Below, one piece after another: positions 15,130 to 64,000 of a DNA stretch of 64,000 nt. The stretch spans positions 59,645 to 123,644 of the forward strand of contig PBAU01000010.1 in NCBI GenBank assembly GCA_002716355.1. Direction: 5' to 3'. This DNA comes from a bacterium (GTDB lineage: Bacteria > UBP7 > UBA6624). Made by a program: the position numbers and the translations under genes. Within the stretch, counting starts at the first letter, position 1; each line of letters begins with the position of its first letter. Below the pieces are notes generated by a model. That model saw only the letters and a program-made list of their open reading frames with translations, searched no databases and had not been told where the DNA came from.

Positions 15130-16254
15130 TTATTTTGAAAAAAGTATAGGGTTCTCTCGCTTGAGAAGCATGAACAAAGATACAACTAAGAACAAAAGAT
15201 TAGGGAACCATGCTGCAACAACAGCAGACAAGCCAATCTTGCTTAAAGCTATACCTATGAGCATCACTACATAATAAAAGAAAATAACCAACATTGACAT
15301 TCCAATTCCCATTCCAGGCCCTACTGATTTTCTTTCAAAAGATGATCCCATTGCAACTCCAAGTAAAGAGAAAATAATTGAGGCAAAAGGAACTGCAATC
15401 TTTAATTCTGTTTGAGTCGCCAGCTTATCAGCCTTTATTGACTCACCTCTTTTTCTTACTTCAGAAACATATTTTTTAGCATTTGAATAATTCATTTCTT
15501 GTACATCTTTTGTTCTAAGTTTTTTAATATTGGTAGGACTCTCTTCAAAAAAAACACGCACCTTGTCTTGTTGCAAGTTTGCAAAGCGGCCAGAACCAAG
15601 ATTAGATAATGTAACCACATTGAGAAGCTCCCAAGAACCATCCTCAGATATATAAAGCCCTTTTTCAGCTAAAAAATATTCTGAAAACATTAATTGATTC
15701 TCTTGATCTTCGTATCTAAACAAATGCAGGTTATTTAAAACATTATTATCTAAATTTTGAGCAATTAAATTCCATTTAATATTGCCAGATGGGTAATAAG
15801 ATTCAAAATTAACATCATTTTCTTGCGCTCTACCCTCTCGATAAATTTCTACAGCTAATTTTTCCATTTTTTCAACTGAGGAAGGTATTACAAATTCATT
15901 TAAAGAAACTGAAAGCAAAAATGAAAAAAAACCAACAACCATAACGCTCAAAGAAATTCTTCTTAAGCTTGAACCTGAAACAAGAGCTGCGCGCAATTCT
16001 CCACTAGAGGAAAGTTGTGAGAAAGTTAATATTGAAGCCAGTAAAATAGTCATAGGTATAGCTACAACAACTGACTGAGGCACACCTAGAGCTAAAAACT
16101 CTGAAACCTGTGCTATTGGAGTTTCCATATCTACAATCATTTTGACTGCTGTTTTAAAAGAAGCAGAAAACAAAACTAAAAAAGTAAAAGTAACAAGGCC
16201 ATATACAAAGAGGCCCCTAATCTGCCTTAACACAAAAATATCTATAAGCTTCAA
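15130..16254 (-). CDS. LPS export ABC transporter permease (LptF/LptG family)
   Basis: A 374-residue YjgP/YjgQ-family permease. The N-terminus is typical (IFVLRQIRGLFVYG), with three membrane segments in the first ~120 residues, a periplasmic beta-jellyroll region (about 130-270) and three more segments at the C-terminus, including IVFSLLGVAMG-like sequence. With LptB it would form the inner-membrane LPS extraction complex. The start is TTG, two bases after the lptB stop. Only one permease gene is present, so whether it is LptF or LptG cannot be decided; the partner must lie elsewhere. Confidence 0.88.
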   Translation of the reverse strand: MKLIDIFVLRQIRGLFVYGLVTFTFLVLFSASFKTAVKMIVDMETPIAQVSEFLALGVPQSVVVAIPMTILLASILTFSQLSSSGELRAALVSGSSLRRISLSVMVVGFFSFLLSVSLNEFVIPSSVEKMEKLAVEIYREGRAQENDVNFESYYPSGNIKWNLIAQNLDNNVLNNLHLFRYEDQENQLMFSEYFLAEKGLYISEDGSWELLNVVTLSNLGSGRFANLQQDKVRVFFEESPTNIKKLRTKDVQEMNYSNAKKYVSEVRKRGESIKADKLATQTELKIAVPFASIIFSLLGVAMGSSFERKSVGPGMGIGMSMLVIFFYYVVMLIGIALSKIGLSAVVAAWFPNLLFLVVSLFMLLKRENPILFSK

Positions 16255-57226: not shown

Positions 57227-57269
57227 ACGATTTGAGTATCCTATCATAATCGAGATTTAATGTGATACA

Positions 57270-57442
57270 CTAAACTTATTGGGTGGTTTTAACCCATTGG
57301 GTTATACCTTAAAAAGGGAAAATTGTGAGAATCAATTACGGCCCCCGCCACCGTAACTGGCACAAAAAAATATTGCCACTGTTTTGAAGAATGGGAAGGC
57401 AAGATTGTTTCAAACGCCAGTAGTCGGGAGACCTGCCTAAGC
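57270..57442 (+). promoter_or_regulatory. Cobalamin (B12) riboswitch
   Basis: The conserved core blocks occur in order: AAAAAGGGAA (57311-57320), GGCCCCCGCCACCGTAAC (57340-57357), GCCACTG (57375-57381), GGGAAGGC (57393-57400) and the B12 box GTCGGGAGACCTGCC (57423-57437). The box is followed 16 bases later by the ribosome site GGGAGGT (57454-57460). ACCTGCC at 57431-57437 can pair with that site at six of seven positions, so ligand-dependent blocking of translation is plausible. It faces the propeller lipoprotein and BtuF-like gene. Confidence 0.9.
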
Positions 57443-57463
57443 TTAAAAATTACGGGAGGTAAT

Positions 57464-58600
57464 ATGATGAAAAAATTTATCAAAGCAAAAATATTATTAA
57501 TTATTCTTATTTTCTGCTCATGTTCGGGACAAACACCTGAAAATTCCAATAGAGCAAACCTTGTTCTTTTAACAAACGACTGGAGTCTAAATGAAACTAA
57601 CTTTTCTATAAACACAGAAAAAGGAGACTGGCTTGAAAGTTCTGAATATCTTGATATAAATGATACCTTTAGCGCTGATACCGTAGCTAGATCCTTCAAG
57701 GAGAATGAAGCTTGGTTTCTGGACAGGCATAATCATTCAGTTTCAAAAATCAGATTTTCAAAAAATGGCTCCCCCCAGATGGTTTCAAAATGGACATTAG
57801 AAGATAGTCCAAATCCACATGATGTATGGCTTCATAATCAAATTCTTTACATAACACAATATGAAAATGAATCTCTAATTATGCTTGACGAAGAAAACGG
57901 TCAAAAAATAACTGAAATCAACCTCTCAAATGGAGAATTGAGCAGTTGTGCTCAAAATGATGGAAAATCAGAAATGGATCAGATATTCATGAAAAATAAT
58001 AAAATTTACATTTCTATGCAATGTCTTGACACAACAGGTTCCTGGAATCCAGTTACTGAAGGAAAGCTAGCAGTCTTAGACACAAATACAAATTCAATAT
58101 CAGAAATAATAACGTTAAATGACTGCTTCAATCCAGTTGATGCTTCAGAAGGACCTTCTGGTAATTATTTATATTTTTCTTGCGTCAACAATTATGAAGG
58201 TGGAAATGATGGCTCGATAATAAAAATGAATTACGCTAACCACTCCATTCAAAAAATTGCTGATGAATCGTTATTCGGAGGAGACATTGGAGGAATAACA
58301 ATAAAAAATGATGAAAATATATTTGTAACTGTTACCGCTCCGGATTGGAGTCACACATGGGTTTCGAAAGTAAATATAAATGAAAACCAAGCAGAAACAA
58401 TACATCAAAAAAATACACCTTGGCATAACAGGATAGCTTTCAAGAACGAGACCTTGTGGCTTATAGGCAATGAAGGGCTTTACTCTATTTCTGATTGTGG
58501 TTTGTTTTGCACAGATGAACAATTGATAAAATCTTCATCAAAATCAGCTCAACTACTATTTTGGCTTGGAGATCCGATGTTCGGTGGTGGTGGGCATTAA
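57464..58600 (+). CDS. Beta-propeller lipoprotein under B12 riboswitch control (BtuG-like candidate)
   Basis: A 378-residue lipoprotein. The signal ends near Cys18/Cys20 (IFCSCSG) and the rest is a YncE-like propeller with repeated strands such as EAWFLDRHNHSVSKI, DVWLHNQILYITQYENES and NYLYFSCVNNYEGGNDGSI. The combination of cobalamin riboswitch, lipid anchor and propeller matches the architecture of BtuG, the surface B12-capturing lipoprotein that caps BtuB in Bacteroidetes. That homology is inferred, not shown. Start may be ATG 57467, better spaced from GGAGG than 57464. No btuB is in the window. Confidence 0.82.
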   Translation: MMKKFIKAKILLIILIFCSCSGQTPENSNRANLVLLTNDWSLNETNFSINTEKGDWLESSEYLDINDTFSADTVARSFKENEAWFLDRHNHSVSKIRFSKNGSPQMVSKWTLEDSPNPHDVWLHNQILYITQYENESLIMLDEENGQKITEINLSNGELSSCAQNDGKSEMDQIFMKNNKIYISMQCLDTTGSWNPVTEGKLAVLDTNTNSISEIITLNDCFNPVDASEGPSGNYLYFSCVNNYEGGNDGSIIKMNYANHSIQKIADESLFGGDIGGITIKNDENIFVTVTAPDWSHTWVSKVNINENQAETIHQKNTPWHNRIAFKNETLWLIGNEGLYSISDCGLFCTDEQLIKSSSKSAQLLFWLGDPMFGGGGH

Positions 58601-59561
58601 AAAGCTGATACATGCTTTATATGTTTTAATATTACTAATTCCCACCTCCTGCAAAGAAGCAGGTCAAGAACAAATTCAAAAATCTGAGATAAAGGAATGG
58701 AAAATAATATCTTTAGCACCATCAACAACAAGCATGCTTGCAGAGCTTGGCTTGTCTGAACACATTGTTGCAGTAGATTCATTTTCAAAAAAAGGTTCAA
58801 GTTTTTTAGACATTGGTGGACTCATTGATCCGAACTATGAATTAATAACAACAATCAAACCAACGCATATCATTGGCTTGAATAGCCATTCAAAAATCAA
58901 AGAGAAGCTGCATTTCATGAATTCGAAATGGATGTTAAATCCATCAGAAAGCCTTAATGATTATTTTCAAACAATCCAAGAAATAGGTAAAGAATTCAAT
59001 AAAGACCTTGAAGCAGAAAAACATTTGATGGAGATAGAAGAACTTGTAAAATCCTTAAGGGAGCTGATATCCCTAAATACAAATTGCGAATTGCTAAAAT
59101 TTGAATATTGCCAAAATGAAAAAAAAATAATGATGATTATTTCAAGAAAACCTGGTGAAATAACAAACATGTTGGCAGCTGGAAAAGGAACTTTCCTTTC
59201 TGAAATTATTGAAAAACTAGGTGTAAAAAACGCAATAAAGAATCAAGAAAGGGCATTGAATCCTTATTGGCCAAATATAGGTGCTGAAAGCTTAATTGCA
59301 ATAAACCCGGATGAAATATGGGAATTTGGAGAAAAGAGCGATGATCAAAATTTATGTTGCGATATTGATAGTTTTTTTTACCCTTACCTTAAGCTAGAAA
59401 ACATCACAGCTGTAAAAAATAAAAAAATAAAACTATTCCAGGATACCGACTTAACCGTTCCGGGAACAAATATAAAAAAAACATTGATTCGATTTGCAAT
59501 AGAGCTCTATCCTGAAATAAAAGATAATATAAAAATACTAATCAAGCCAGCGAGAAGCTGA
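58584..59561 (+). CDS. btuF: BtuF-like ABC transporter substrate-binding lipoprotein
   Basis: A periplasmic-binding protein of the BtuF/TroA class, about 325 residues. It carries IISLAPSTTSMLAELGL, the IGGLIDPNYELITTIKPTHIIG segment and NPYWPNIGAESLIAINPDEIW, all typical of vitamin B12 and iron-siderophore binders. A short signal ends near PTSCKE. The frame is open from TTG 58566, but a GTG at 58584-58590 within the preceding gene's end is a better start. The riboswitch upstream makes cobalamin the likely ligand. btuC and btuD are not in the window. Confidence 0.85.
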   Translation: MVVGIKKLIHALYVLILLIPTSCKEAGQEQIQKSEIKEWKIISLAPSTTSMLAELGLSEHIVAVDSFSKKGSSFLDIGGLIDPNYELITTIKPTHIIGLNSHSKIKEKLHFMNSKWMLNPSESLNDYFQTIQEIGKEFNKDLEAEKHLMEIEELVKSLRELISLNTNCELLKFEYCQNEKKIMMIISRKPGEITNMLAAGKGTFLSEIIEKLGVKNAIKNQERALNPYWPNIGAESLIAINPDEIWEFGEKSDDQNLCCDIDSFFYPYLKLENITAVKNKKIKLFQDTDLTVPGTNIKKTLIRFAIELYPEIKDNIKILIKPARS

Positions 59562-60890
59562 CCATAATTCAAGTGAATTATCACCTTTGTAACAAAGAAA
59601 ATCGCTACCATTAAAAGCTAACATAAGTGTTGAGCGTGACGCTAAATTTTGATCTTTTTTACCAATTACCTTCAAGCCAAAATGACCTGCTGCTAAGTAA
59701 TTTTGGCCTATGTCCAATAAGGAAAGTACGGAACTCTTCAAATTAATCTTTTTAAAGTTTTTATCTTCAAAATAAACACTTCCATCAACAGTCGAAAATG
59801 CTGAACCTGAAAAACTTAAACCTGCACAGCTCAAATCTTTTTTCTTTTTAGGCATGAAGCTGTTGTTTTTTTCGTAAAGCGTAAATAAGCTTCCATAAAG
59901 ATCAACAAGGTGAATGTTTTTCTCTCCATAAAAAACAATACTGATACCATTTTTTTCCTCAAAAACTACAGTGGGTTTATCATTTTCTACAAGGACTAAG
60001 GAACCTTCCAGAGAGCCTATTAGAAGCTTGTTGTTTTCAAGATCTGCACAAATAGGCTTTATGTTCAATTTAAAATCTGAAATAAGATTCAGGCCCTTGT
60101 CCCATTTTGAAACGAAGCCGTCTGAAGATACTGCAAATAAAAAATTCTTGTTTGAAACAAGTGCGATTATTTTTTTCTTGTGAAAATCTAAAATTCTTGA
60201 TTCGCTTATCTCTTTTTCATGAATGTTTAAAACAGCAATATCACCATTAACCTTTCCCGTAATCCAAAATCCTGAAAAATACGCTACTGCAGTCAAGCCA
60301 GAAAAATCAGAAAAAGCCCTGGGTGATTCACCAACCTCTACGAGGGCGTCATTTACCCATTCTCCATTTAAGTTTTCAGAAACGGCTTGATTGCATAATG
60401 CAATGGTTTTTAAATATTTTTTTTCGCTTAATGCATTTTTAATATCTCTTTTATAGAGTTTCTTTTTTTCTCTTTTTTCGCTTAAAGCCAGGTCTTCTAG
60501 ATGTTGTTTTGCTGATGCGTTGGAACCATCAACAGACAGAATTTCAAGAGCTATCTCTTTTGCCTTTGCAGGCTTAGAGCGCTTTAGCTTATTCATGTTT
60601 TCCAATAATTTTTCTATTTTTTCTTTTTTTAACTTCGTTAAAATTTCTTGGGCCCATTGTATGGATGGAGCCTTTTTAAGAACCTTTAGGACATGGTCAT
60701 AGCAGTCATCCCAACTACCATTTTCCAAAAGTTCCTCACATTTTTCTTTTTGCTCATCTGCCCACATTGCCTTATCTACAGATTCCCTACCACCTTCAAT
60801 AAGCCAAGAACCACAAAAACGACACTTGTAAGCACCTTGCATAATCATCTCTCCACAGTAAGGACAAGGTATTCTTTTTTCGTTACTCAT
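59538..60890 (-). CDS. Zinc-ribbon and WD40-type propeller protein
   Basis: A 450-residue protein. A double-Cys zinc ribbon (CPYCGEMIMQGAYKCRFCG, residues 9-27) opens it. A helical region with TPR-like character (about 40-165) follows, then a WD40/PQQ-like propeller with repeats such as IIALVSNKNFLFAVSSDGFVSKWDKG. No signal peptide is present, so it is cytoplasmic. Its start overlaps the upstream WD40 gene by eight bases, and the two probably work together. Partner and role are unknown. It ends in convergent overlap with the btuF-like gene. Confidence 0.82.
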   Translation of the reverse strand: MSNEKRIPCPYCGEMIMQGAYKCRFCGSWLIEGGRESVDKAMWADEQKEKCEELLENGSWDDCYDHVLKVLKKAPSIQWAQEILTKLKKEKIEKLLENMNKLKRSKPAKAKEIALEILSVDGSNASAKQHLEDLALSEKREKKKLYKRDIKNALSEKKYLKTIALCNQAVSENLNGEWVNDALVEVGESPRAFSDFSGLTAVAYFSGFWITGKVNGDIAVLNIHEKEISESRILDFHKKKIIALVSNKNFLFAVSSDGFVSKWDKGLNLISDFKLNIKPICADLENNKLLIGSLEGSLVLVENDKPTVVFEEKNGISIVFYGEKNIHLVDLYGSLFTLYEKNNSFMPKKKKDLSCAGLSFSGSAFSTVDGSVYFEDKNFKKINLKSSVLSLLDIGQNYLAAGHFGLKVIGKKDQNLASRSTLMLAFNGSDFLCYKGDNSLELWSASRWLD

Positions 60891-63513
60891 TTCTCTCTTC
60901 CATGTTTAAAAAAACCAAATTTTCCTCTGAAACAACAACGAGCATTTCAATATCTAAATAATTCAAAAAGCCTAATGTCCAAATCTTGCCCAAAGAAGGA
61001 TCCCAATTTATCTCAGATAACTGATTGCCATCTGAATCAAAAACAAACACCTTGTCAGTAAATTCAGTTGCAAAAGCAAAGCTACCACTATCATTCACCA
61101 CAACACTTCCAAGCTTGATAGATTTTGGATCTTTTAACATTTTTTTTGCTTTCGGAAAATCCTGAGATGCGTTCCCTATCCACACCTGACCATTTTGATC
61201 AAATGCAAAAATAGTTCCAGAATCATTAAGAAGGACATCTGTAACTGGTTGATTTATTGTCAAATTTCCTACAGCAGATAAACCCATAAGCTCTCCTTTC
61301 ATTACACTGTAAAGGGAAACAATGGAGTTGTTGGGTCCAAAATTATAACCAATAGCAATATGTTCATTATTGTTAACGCTTAACTTGATCTGTCTTGACT
61401 CAAGCCCATCCCAAACAAACTTACTAGAGCCATAGCCCATAACAACCTGGAGGGATCTTGTTTCACTCTCGTGAAAAACACCGAAACCATTATCTGCAAG
61501 ATCAAAAGCATCAAAATACCTTTTGCTTGAAATGATCTTTCTCTTTTCCGATCCGGCCTGAGAGTCCACCCACGCCCCTTTTGAAGAAGCCCAAAAAACT
61601 TCACTTTCAAAATGAACTTTTTGCACTAGTGAGTCGTCAACATCACCATCACCATTCTCTAAATTTGAAAATCTGAATGGTGAAGAAGATAATATACGAT
61701 ATCCACCCCTTACACCTAGCAACAATTCAATATTTTTAAAATCTTCAGATTGTGAAAGCGAATAAACCTGTTCCGGCAAGTTGAAAACATACACGGGAAG
61801 ATTGTCAATTTTAGAAAGTTCATAAAGTTGTGCAAAAATCAAAGCTTCATCTTCTTTCTCTAATAGCAACAAAGGGAAGGCTTTTTCTGAAAAATACCGT
61901 ACCTCTTCAGCAGTTGAGTTTTTTAAAAAATAATCTAAATTATCCTTAAACAAGCTTCCAAATGGTATTTTTTGAGATAGCTCAAACATAACTTCTGCTT
62001 CAAGAAGCCAATCCGGCTTCTCTATCCTAAGCCCACTTAAAAGCAAGGATAACTCTTTTAAAAAATCATCATCATAATCAAGATAAGGGTTGATGTGCAT
62101 GTCTATTTTTGTTGACTCTTTTATTTCGGACAATCTCATTTCGTAAGATTTTTTCAGAAGTAAAGATACCCACGCCAAATCTGGTTTCAAAGGTATTTTT
62201 TTCAACTCTGATATCGATTCTTTGAAATTTCCTGAATCAAATAAAGATTGAATTTTTATCTTTAAAGAAACAAAAGCGTCTTGCTCATAGCTTGCAAGCA
62301 GGTTTGAAACATCTGCACTTTCTGGCCATTCTTGACTTAAATCATTCAACAAGGATGAAGCTCTAACCCAATTTTCCTCTTCTATATAAGACCTTGCTTC
62401 CCTTATTTTGCTTTTTGGCGGAATGCTTGGGTCTTTCAGCAAAAGTGAAGATATCAAGAAAATAACCGCTATCGCACAAATTTGAAAGTATCTATTTTTT
62501 AAAAACTTTTTCTCTTTGATTTGGCTTATGAAAGATACATCACCCCTTCCTTCATCCTTTTTTTCAACTAATAATTCAACTTTTTCTCTTTTTTCTTTTT
62601 TAGGCTTTTTGGCTATTTTGTTTGATTTTGGCTTTTTGCCCCAGCCTAAAACTGTGCCATTTGAAAGCGTTCCAAGCAAAGCAGCACCATCTAAAGACCA
62701 TTCGAAAGAGGTTACTCCTTCGCTTTTTGAAATATTTGACAAATATTTTTTTCTTTTGTTCCAATCTAACAAAATTGCATTTTCATACTTTCTTCCAACG
62801 GCCAAAAGTGAATGTTTTGGAGAAAAAGATAACGATGTTACAGGAGCTTCACAATCAAAATTTTTCAAAAGTGTCCAATCCCCATTTTTCCATATAGAAA
62901 CAGAACCATCATCCGATCCTGTAGCTATTAAAAATCCACCGGAGTGAACAGCTAGAGATGAAATACTATCCCTATGTGCAGGTATTTCTGAAATCAAATT
63001 ACCTCTTATGTCTAAAACATGAAAACTAGGCCTTTCCCCAACTACCAAAAGAGAAGAATCTGGCAACTTTTCCAAACCATGCACACTTCCTATATCTATT
63101 TGCTTTTCCCAAATAGCCTCGCCATCTAAGCCCCAACATCTAACCCTGCCATCCTGGCCTCCAGAAACCAAAAAATTAGAAAAAACAGATAAAGAATAAA
63201 CAAAACCTTTAAAACCGGCTATCTTGCTTAACGTTTCCCCGGTTTCAACATCAACACGCAAAATAGAACCATTGCCTCCAACAAAAAGAGAGCCATCTTC
63301 ATGGAAGAACAAAGACAAAACCATACCTCCAAAACCCCTTATGACTTTCTTTCTAGATCCTGTTGAATAATCCCATATCAAAACACGATCGTCTAAACCA
63401 CCTGTGGCATAAATTTTTCCATTTGGATGAGCTGCAACACAAGCAGCTTCTGCTAGATGTTCTACCAGTTTAAAAGACTTCATAACTCTTACTGGCTCAA
63501 ATACAAGAACCAT
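60883..63513 (-). CDS. Membrane-anchored WD40 repeat protein
   Basis: An 876-residue two-part protein. Residues ~1-290 form a WD40 propeller (repeats such as ATGGLDDRVLIWDYSTGSRK, ATGSDDGSVSIWKNG). A Lys-rich linker and one membrane span (about 345-362) then lead to a helical region with TPR-like segments and a second beta-propeller-like C-terminal half. The N-terminus is probably cytoplasmic and the C-terminal part periplasmic. The start could also be Met11 (MKSFKLVEHL). It overlaps the zinc-ribbon WD40 gene by eight bases. No enzyme motif was found. Confidence 0.82.
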   Translation of the reverse strand: MVLVFEPVRVMKSFKLVEHLAEAACVAAHPNGKIYATGGLDDRVLIWDYSTGSRKKVIRGFGGMVLSLFFHEDGSLFVGGNGSILRVDVETGETLSKIAGFKGFVYSLSVFSNFLVSGGQDGRVRCWGLDGEAIWEKQIDIGSVHGLEKLPDSSLLVVGERPSFHVLDIRGNLISEIPAHRDSISSLAVHSGGFLIATGSDDGSVSIWKNGDWTLLKNFDCEAPVTSLSFSPKHSLLAVGRKYENAILLDWNKRKKYLSNISKSEGVTSFEWSLDGAALLGTLSNGTVLGWGKKPKSNKIAKKPKKEKREKVELLVEKKDEGRGDVSFISQIKEKKFLKNRYFQICAIAVIFLISSLLLKDPSIPPKSKIREARSYIEEENWVRASSLLNDLSQEWPESADVSNLLASYEQDAFVSLKIKIQSLFDSGNFKESISELKKIPLKPDLAWVSLLLKKSYEMRLSEIKESTKIDMHINPYLDYDDDFLKELSLLLSGLRIEKPDWLLEAEVMFELSQKIPFGSLFKDNLDYFLKNSTAEEVRYFSEKAFPLLLLEKEDEALIFAQLYELSKIDNLPVYVFNLPEQVYSLSQSEDFKNIELLLGVRGGYRILSSSPFRFSNLENGDGDVDDSLVQKVHFESEVFWASSKGAWVDSQAGSEKRKIISSKRYFDAFDLADNGFGVFHESETRSLQVVMGYGSSKFVWDGLESRQIKLSVNNNEHIAIGYNFGPNNSIVSLYSVMKGELMGLSAVGNLTINQPVTDVLLNDSGTIFAFDQNGQVWIGNASQDFPKAKKMLKDPKSIKLGSVVVNDSGSFAFATEFTDKVFVFDSDGNQLSEINWDPSLGKIWTLGFLNYLDIEMLVVVSEENLVFLNMEERNE

Positions 63514-63571: not shown

Positions 63572-64000
63572 ATGAACACTAAATATCTATGGCTTATAGC
63601 TGGTTTAATCATTTTGGTTTTATCCACCTCAGAGCCAGAAGAAGGCAACAGGATGCAAATGATCCAAATGACAAAACAGGAAGGAAATGACTGGAGTCAA
63701 GAAAGAATGGAAGATTGGCGTGAGGTTGAAATGAAGCGAAGGGAGATGATGGAAAGAGGCAATTGGGACCGAGATGAGATGGGAGACAGGCGCGAGATGG
63801 AAAGAGGCAATTGGGACCGAGATGAGATGGAAAAAGATATTAGAGTTTTTCATTTTGAAACAAGCAACCCTGACGAAGCTAGAAAAAAAATGGCTGAAAT
63901 GATGGAAAGCATTGTAAAAGGCATGGGCAATATGCACATGGAGAAAGGCTGGGACATGAAAGGCAAAGGCATGGAGAAAGGCTGGGACATGAAAGGCAAA
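63572..64000 (+). CDS. Secreted Met/Trp/charge-rich repeat protein, 3' truncated by the window
   Basis: At least 143 residues, open to the window end. The start has a strong ribosome site and a signal-like N-terminus (MNTKYLWLIAGLIILVLSTS). The mature part is unusually rich in Met, Trp, Lys, Glu, Arg and Asp. It contains two MERGNWDRDEM units 16 residues apart and, near the end, repeats of MEKGWDMKGKG. No catalytic motif is visible. Met-rich secreted proteins sometimes bind copper or resist oxidation, but that is only a possibility. The divergent neighbour is the membrane WD40 protein. Confidence 0.8.
   Translation, partial: MNTKYLWLIAGLIILVLSTSEPEEGNRMQMIQMTKQEGNDWSQERMEDWREVEMKRREMMERGNWDRDEMGDRREMERGNWDRDEMEKDIRVFHFETSNPDEARKKMAEMMESIVKGMGNMHMEKGWDMKGKGMEKGWDMKGK
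63749..63830. repeat. Two identical 34-base direct repeats, 48 bases apart
   Basis: Copies at 63749-63782 and 63797-63830 are identical and in frame (offset 16 codons). Each encodes MERGNWDRDEM in the Met-rich gene. Confidence 0.9.
63938..64000. repeat. 33-base tandem repeat running off the window
   Basis: One full 33-base unit (63938-63970) and 30 bases of a second identical copy (63971-64000) encode MEKGWDMKGKG units. The array may continue beyond the window. Confidence 0.9.

Follow-up and report, generated by a model that had tools for sequence, protein, structure and literature searches.

A cobalamin riboswitch precedes genes for a BtuG-like propeller lipoprotein and a BtuF-class binding protein in a diderm lineage with no detected TonB-dependent receptor

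The window analysed here is a 64,000-nucleotide stretch of contig PBAU01000010.1, part of a host genome (G000) of 1.26 Mb in 16 contigs that is 86.6% complete. Near its right end a cobalamin riboswitch aptamer and two genes lie together on the forward strand. A preliminary description, made from the sequence alone, had placed such a riboswitch ahead of the two genes, and comparison with Rfam bears this out: cmscan matches RF00174 at positions 57264–57454 with 86.2 bits against a cut-off of 31.5 (E 7.6e-20), over the full length of the aptamer model (positions 1–189), and this is the single copy detected in the host genome. The first gene (57464–58600), which starts 10 bases after the aptamer, encodes a 378-residue BtuG-like beta-propeller lipoprotein (P0001), with a lipoprotein-type signal, MMKKFIKAKILLIILIFCSC, and a lipobox-like cysteine as judged by eye. 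The second (58584–59561) encodes P0002, a putative lipoprotein of about 325 residues in the BtuF class of substrate-binding proteins (SBPs). Its start overlaps the propeller stop codon, and one of the candidate GTG codons at 58584, 58587 and 58590 is more likely to be used than the TTG at 58566. The gene 3′ of P0002 is oppositely oriented, and 5′ of the riboswitch there are two tRNAs and then more genes on the opposite strand. The arrangement recurs, together with its flanking genes and tRNAs, in G002, a genome from another genus of the host family whose propeller is 34% identical to P0001, and is therefore no chance juxtaposition.

The leader offers some clues to how the switch may act. The L5 loop of the aptamer (GCCCCCG, 57341–57347, placed from the cmscan alignment) contains a CCCG that is complementary in sequence to the CGGG of a P13-L13 hairpin, ATTAC-GGGAG-GTAAT, at 57449–57463 on the same strand. 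This hairpin lies directly 5′ of the propeller start codon, carries the Shine-Dalgarno sequence GGGAGG (57454–57459), and folds with a z-score of −6.6 as an isolated stretch. In the G002 leader the loop is identical and the stem reads GTTTC-GGGAG-GAAAC, with two pairs altered on both sides, a compensatory pattern in this comparison of two sequences; folding of a short stretch of that leader favours a shorter stem in the same place. On the strength of these two sequences an L5-L13 kissing loop is predicted for this riboswitch. In translational switches with B12 bound, such a loop, with the consensus UCCCG, conceals the ribosome site (PMC10653944). No terminator-like site was found on the forward strand between the aptamer and the start codon, and transcriptional control was set aside for that reason. 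Because of the Shine-Dalgarno hairpin, its complementarity to L5 and the absence of a terminator-like site, a translational switch turned off by B12 is most likely the best reading, drawing on two sequences and precedent.

The relationship of P0001 to BtuG, a seven-bladed propeller, emerges only when its wider family is considered. No model in Pfam or NCBIfam matches P0001, and alone or together with its single orthologue it finds no match in the PDB; the link thus depends on a family built by iterative search, in which P0001, the G002 protein and the protein of G016 (the sole genome of its phylum among the 386 searched) gave a three-sequence profile. When a profile of 25 family members is compared with the PDB, nine BtuG-type sequences occupy ranks 1–9 (2e-11 to 1.7e-9), and the next, WD40 proteins, follow at 3e-4. 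Entries 8okv, 8p97/8p98, 8bmx, 8bmy and 3dsm are BtuG structures (PMC10404256); going by Foldseek titles, 8bai is BtuG2, and BT1954, the same surface protein of Bacteroides, accounts for 8bmz and 8bn0; 8puj and 8baz are presumably of this type too. A profile from which the host lineage and P0004 were omitted matches P0001 at 2.6e-35 and no other protein of the window, not even the two neighbouring propeller-like ones. Sequence homology beyond that of generic propellers is thus indicated through the 25 relatives. For P0001 and its orthologue, AlphaFold gave models with mean pLDDT values of 62–63 and pTM values of 0.64 and 0.70; the P0001 model is an all-beta propeller, and for both of these low-confidence models the best Foldseek match is 8okv, BtuG3 with cyanocobalamin. 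Identity to BtuG in the structural alignments is about 11–14%, and in VIA-align BtuG ties with other propellers including WD40 (Z ~21), so that the fold by itself is not BtuG-specific; with pLDDT at 62–63, the P0001 pocket is not comparable with that of BtuG. The proposal that the first gene encodes a BtuG-like lipoprotein therefore agrees with both the family profile and the two modelled folds. It had been suggested in addition that the system might be independent or diverged; since at the sequence level the family profile places BtuG before every other propeller, a diverged relative of BtuG fits better, and an independent origin fits less well.

Members of the propeller family were identified with the three-sequence profile in 35 of the 386 genomes, and a separate riboswitch search places a cobalamin riboswitch upstream of the propeller, on the same strand and 10–6000 bp away, in 32 of these 35. 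Family-bearing genomes contain 1–3 cobalamin riboswitches each in 1–8 Mb, and the linkage is thus beyond chance. The distance between the two is mostly about 2.2–2.8 kb, which is the length of one receptor gene, and 22 of the 27 loci fetched from outside the host family (L014–L040) have a BtuB-like TonB-dependent receptor beside the propeller, as recognised by a receptor profile to which 12 of the 22 positive loci, and G016, supplied their own receptor sequence. The receptor lies 3′ of the propeller in two of the 22 (L029 and L035). In the remaining loci, a gene next to the L031 propeller resembles a receptor N-terminus by eye, no receptor was found within the 1.5 kb flank in L033, L036 and L038, where one could lie farther away, and B12 genes are not evident at L040. 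The family matches in G101, G248 and G266 are the ones with no riboswitch nearby; that in G101 has by appearance a generic propeller neighbourhood and was set aside. These neighbourhoods, with homologues adjoining both B12 riboswitches and BtuB-like receptors, accord with the initial proposal, and the family-invariant residues D72, N117, P118 and D120 are all retained in P0001.

The operon of G016 is complete, in the order riboswitch-btuF-btuC-btuD-receptor-propeller, and the order of the window, with a btuF-like gene after the propeller, is seen in G384, G121, G146, G231 and G152. The loci of G384, G121, G146 and G231 share with the window the propeller family, the gene order and the riboswitch class, but in them a BtuB-like receptor gene separates the riboswitch from the propeller, and in the window none does. 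Most simply, the window locus is read as a riboswitch-btuB-propeller-btuF layout minus btuB. The comparison with BtuG1–3 of Bacteroides thetaiotaomicron (8okv, 8bmx, 8bmy, 3dsm) is similar: there too a propeller lipoprotein lies in a cobalamin-riboswitch transport locus, and these proteins are the best match of the family by sequence profile and of P0001 by fold, whereas P0001 has no btuB either adjacent or detected, and its resemblance is beyond the reach of a single-sequence search.

The host also differs from that of BtuG. The presence of LptF/G at 15130–16254, with an LptB-like ATPase alongside, identifies it as a diderm, and because its phylum is represented solely by its own family among the 386 genomes searched, it is not a Bacteroidete; the preliminary description had called it a diderm and had raised the possibility that it lies outside the Bacteroidetes. 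BtuG has been reported from Bacteroidetes only, with no homologues outside that phylum by BlastP among 313 gut genomes (Wexler et al. 2018, PMC6143338), and the literature searched yielded no account of the propeller from beyond this group. BtuG has been described as a lid on BtuB restricted to Bacteroidetes; here a homologous family is linked to cobalamin riboswitches in organisms beyond that phylum, with one lineage retaining the lid without a detectable gate.

In both genera of the lineage that carry the locus, the riboswitch leads directly into the propeller and btuB is absent from the locus itself. No TonB-dependent receptor was found in any of the three lineage genomes (G000, G001 and G002, 62–87% complete) with Plug, barrel or BtuB-specific profiles, the last at E values up to 1, and these profiles do recover receptors in the comparison genomes that served as positive controls; such a receptor is likely absent from these incomplete genomes. 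We consider it somewhat unlikely that a BtuB is present but was missed, in an assembly gap or through divergence, and forms an ordinary BtuG-BtuB pair encoded apart. The host, at 86.6%, leaves room for a receptor in its missing sequence, and all three genomes encode an ExbB-ExbD-TonB-like unit with no recognised receptor for it to serve, so that a very divergent one could have escaped the profiles; against this, G002 (78% complete) lacks one as well, all three profiles are blank in three genomes, and the gene that adjoins the propeller in other phyla is missing from the locus in both genera. The third protein of that unit has a LysM domain (L062 6744–8868 in G000:C3, with counterparts in G001:C14 and G002:C52). 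Contig G000:C15, with a further set, ExbB-ExbD-ExbD-TonB, and an SdhB-like gene (L059, L061), is Bacteroidota-like by eye and may be bin contamination. Diderm import of B12 with no recognised receptor may not be unique to this lineage, as a cobalamin riboswitch and FecCD permeases also occur in the control genome of Thermus composti, where Plug had no match. The apparent lack of a receptor, which the preliminary description did not include, is the most unusual trait of a system that this description had right in substance.

As no channel partner was detected, the lipoprotein P0001 might face the periplasm and pass cobamide on from a general porin to BtuF rather than act as a surface receptor, and by eye no Bacteroidota-type surface export signal is recognised after the lipobox cysteine; the signal used in the host lineage may differ. 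BtuG itself is surface exposed (PMC6143338), and T9SS type A sorting-domain matches are seen at the C-terminus of the propeller relatives L015, L017, L018, L024, L025, L029, L031 and L037, above the curated cut-off in four of them (L025, L029, L031 and L037), which supports display of the propeller on the surface in those four organisms, as predicted from their sequences. We therefore regard a periplasmic relay as unlikely, and capture at the outer membrane as the better placement.

P0002 is the sole Peripla_BP_2 protein detected in the host genome (Pfam, 2.2e-12), in keeping with its first description as BtuF-like, though it scores 25.8 bits against a cut-off of 234 on the BtuF equivalog and its best curated models are those of heme and iron SBPs (IsdE/FhuD). 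This preference, and the presence of XusB, a siderophore-binding propeller lipoprotein, in the Foldseek list, could be taken to mean that B12 merely regulates the pair, whose imported ligand would be a different one such as heme, cobalt or a siderophore. We think this highly improbable: the btuF of G016, inside a complete riboswitch-led B12 operon, likewise falls below the BtuF cut-off, the propeller family tracks cobalamin riboswitches, and XusB is not among the listed profile matches. Among the fetched loci P0002 is closest to the riboswitch- and propeller-linked SBPs of G121 (3e-21) and G384 (1e-20).

For a cobamide ligand an inner-membrane partner can also be proposed. The host genome has one FecCD permease, with an ATPase beside it and no adjacent binding protein (C5, unlinked to the window operon), which scores best with BtuC models; with one Peripla_BP_2 protein and one FecCD permease lacking an SBP of its own, this BtuC-like permease and ATPase probably pair with P0002, by elimination. 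The resemblance to E. coli BtuF/BtuCD thus extends to the Peripla_BP_2 class and the BtuC-like permease, but P0002 is a probable lipoprotein far under the BtuF cut-off, and the permease and ATPase are unlinked and both below cut-off. G002 has no matches to the Peripla_BP_2 or FecCD families; directly 3′ of its riboswitch-controlled propeller it encodes a DUF6580 membrane protein (L003 2599–3153), a candidate inner-membrane B12 permease. The congeneric genome G001 contains a second, self-contained permease-ATPase-SBP operon (G001:C12, L065 6380–9095), and a cobalamin riboswitch was not found in that genome. The host uses B12: contig C11 carries genes for a fused mutase of the IcmF type, for MeaB and for a B12-binding subunit, and contig C4 has one for a radical SAM protein that binds B12.

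Taken together, these features suggest a B12-repressed cobamide scavenging operon of two genes under one riboswitch. When cobamide is scarce the Shine-Dalgarno sequence would be exposed and P0001 and P0002 translated; when cobamide is bound, L5 would pair with L13, whose loop forms part of that sequence, and translation would cease. P0001 would capture cobamide, most likely at the outer membrane, and P0002 would deliver it to the lone BtuC-like permease and its ATPase, whose genes lie elsewhere, so as to supply AdoCbl-dependent mutases, the IcmF-type enzyme among them. Because no BtuB or other TonB-dependent receptor was detected, cobamide would need some unrecognised channel to pass the outer membrane, the original one presumably lost or replaced. 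We hold the role of P0001 in cobamide capture, taken by itself, with considerable confidence, and the full account of a receptor-free, B12-repressed capture and import operon to be moderately probable. More tentatively, with the balance somewhat against it, the lineage may have kept a B12-controlled BtuG-type lipoprotein after losing all TonB-dependent receptors, B12 crossing the outer membrane by a novel route. If so, the propeller would have some second role, or else large cofactors could get into diderms with no TonB-dependent receptor involved; the system is in any case a diverged relative of the known BtuG kind, set apart in that it persists with no detectable receptor.

In the mutase cluster, two putative outer-membrane barrels with aromatic C-termini and no Pfam match (L067 7159–8166 and 8248–9054, in G000:C11) are encoded immediately upstream of the genes for MeaB and the B12-binding protein and are possible channel candidates; G001, but not G002, has the first of them next to MeaB as well. 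Beyond the last propeller strand, P0001 and its G002 orthologue both end in a tail, GDPxFGGGGH (58568–58597, and L003 2560–2589), which is missing from the aligned relatives and whose terminal histidine could be a ligand or contact residue. At 59538–63513 lie two genes convergent with the B12 operon and syntenic in G002, whose large products contain propeller-like repeats and of which one begins with a zinc ribbon; beyond them, at 63572–64000, is the start of a Met/Asp/Arg-rich repetitive protein (GNWDRDEM and KGWDMKGK repeats) that is cut off at the window edge.
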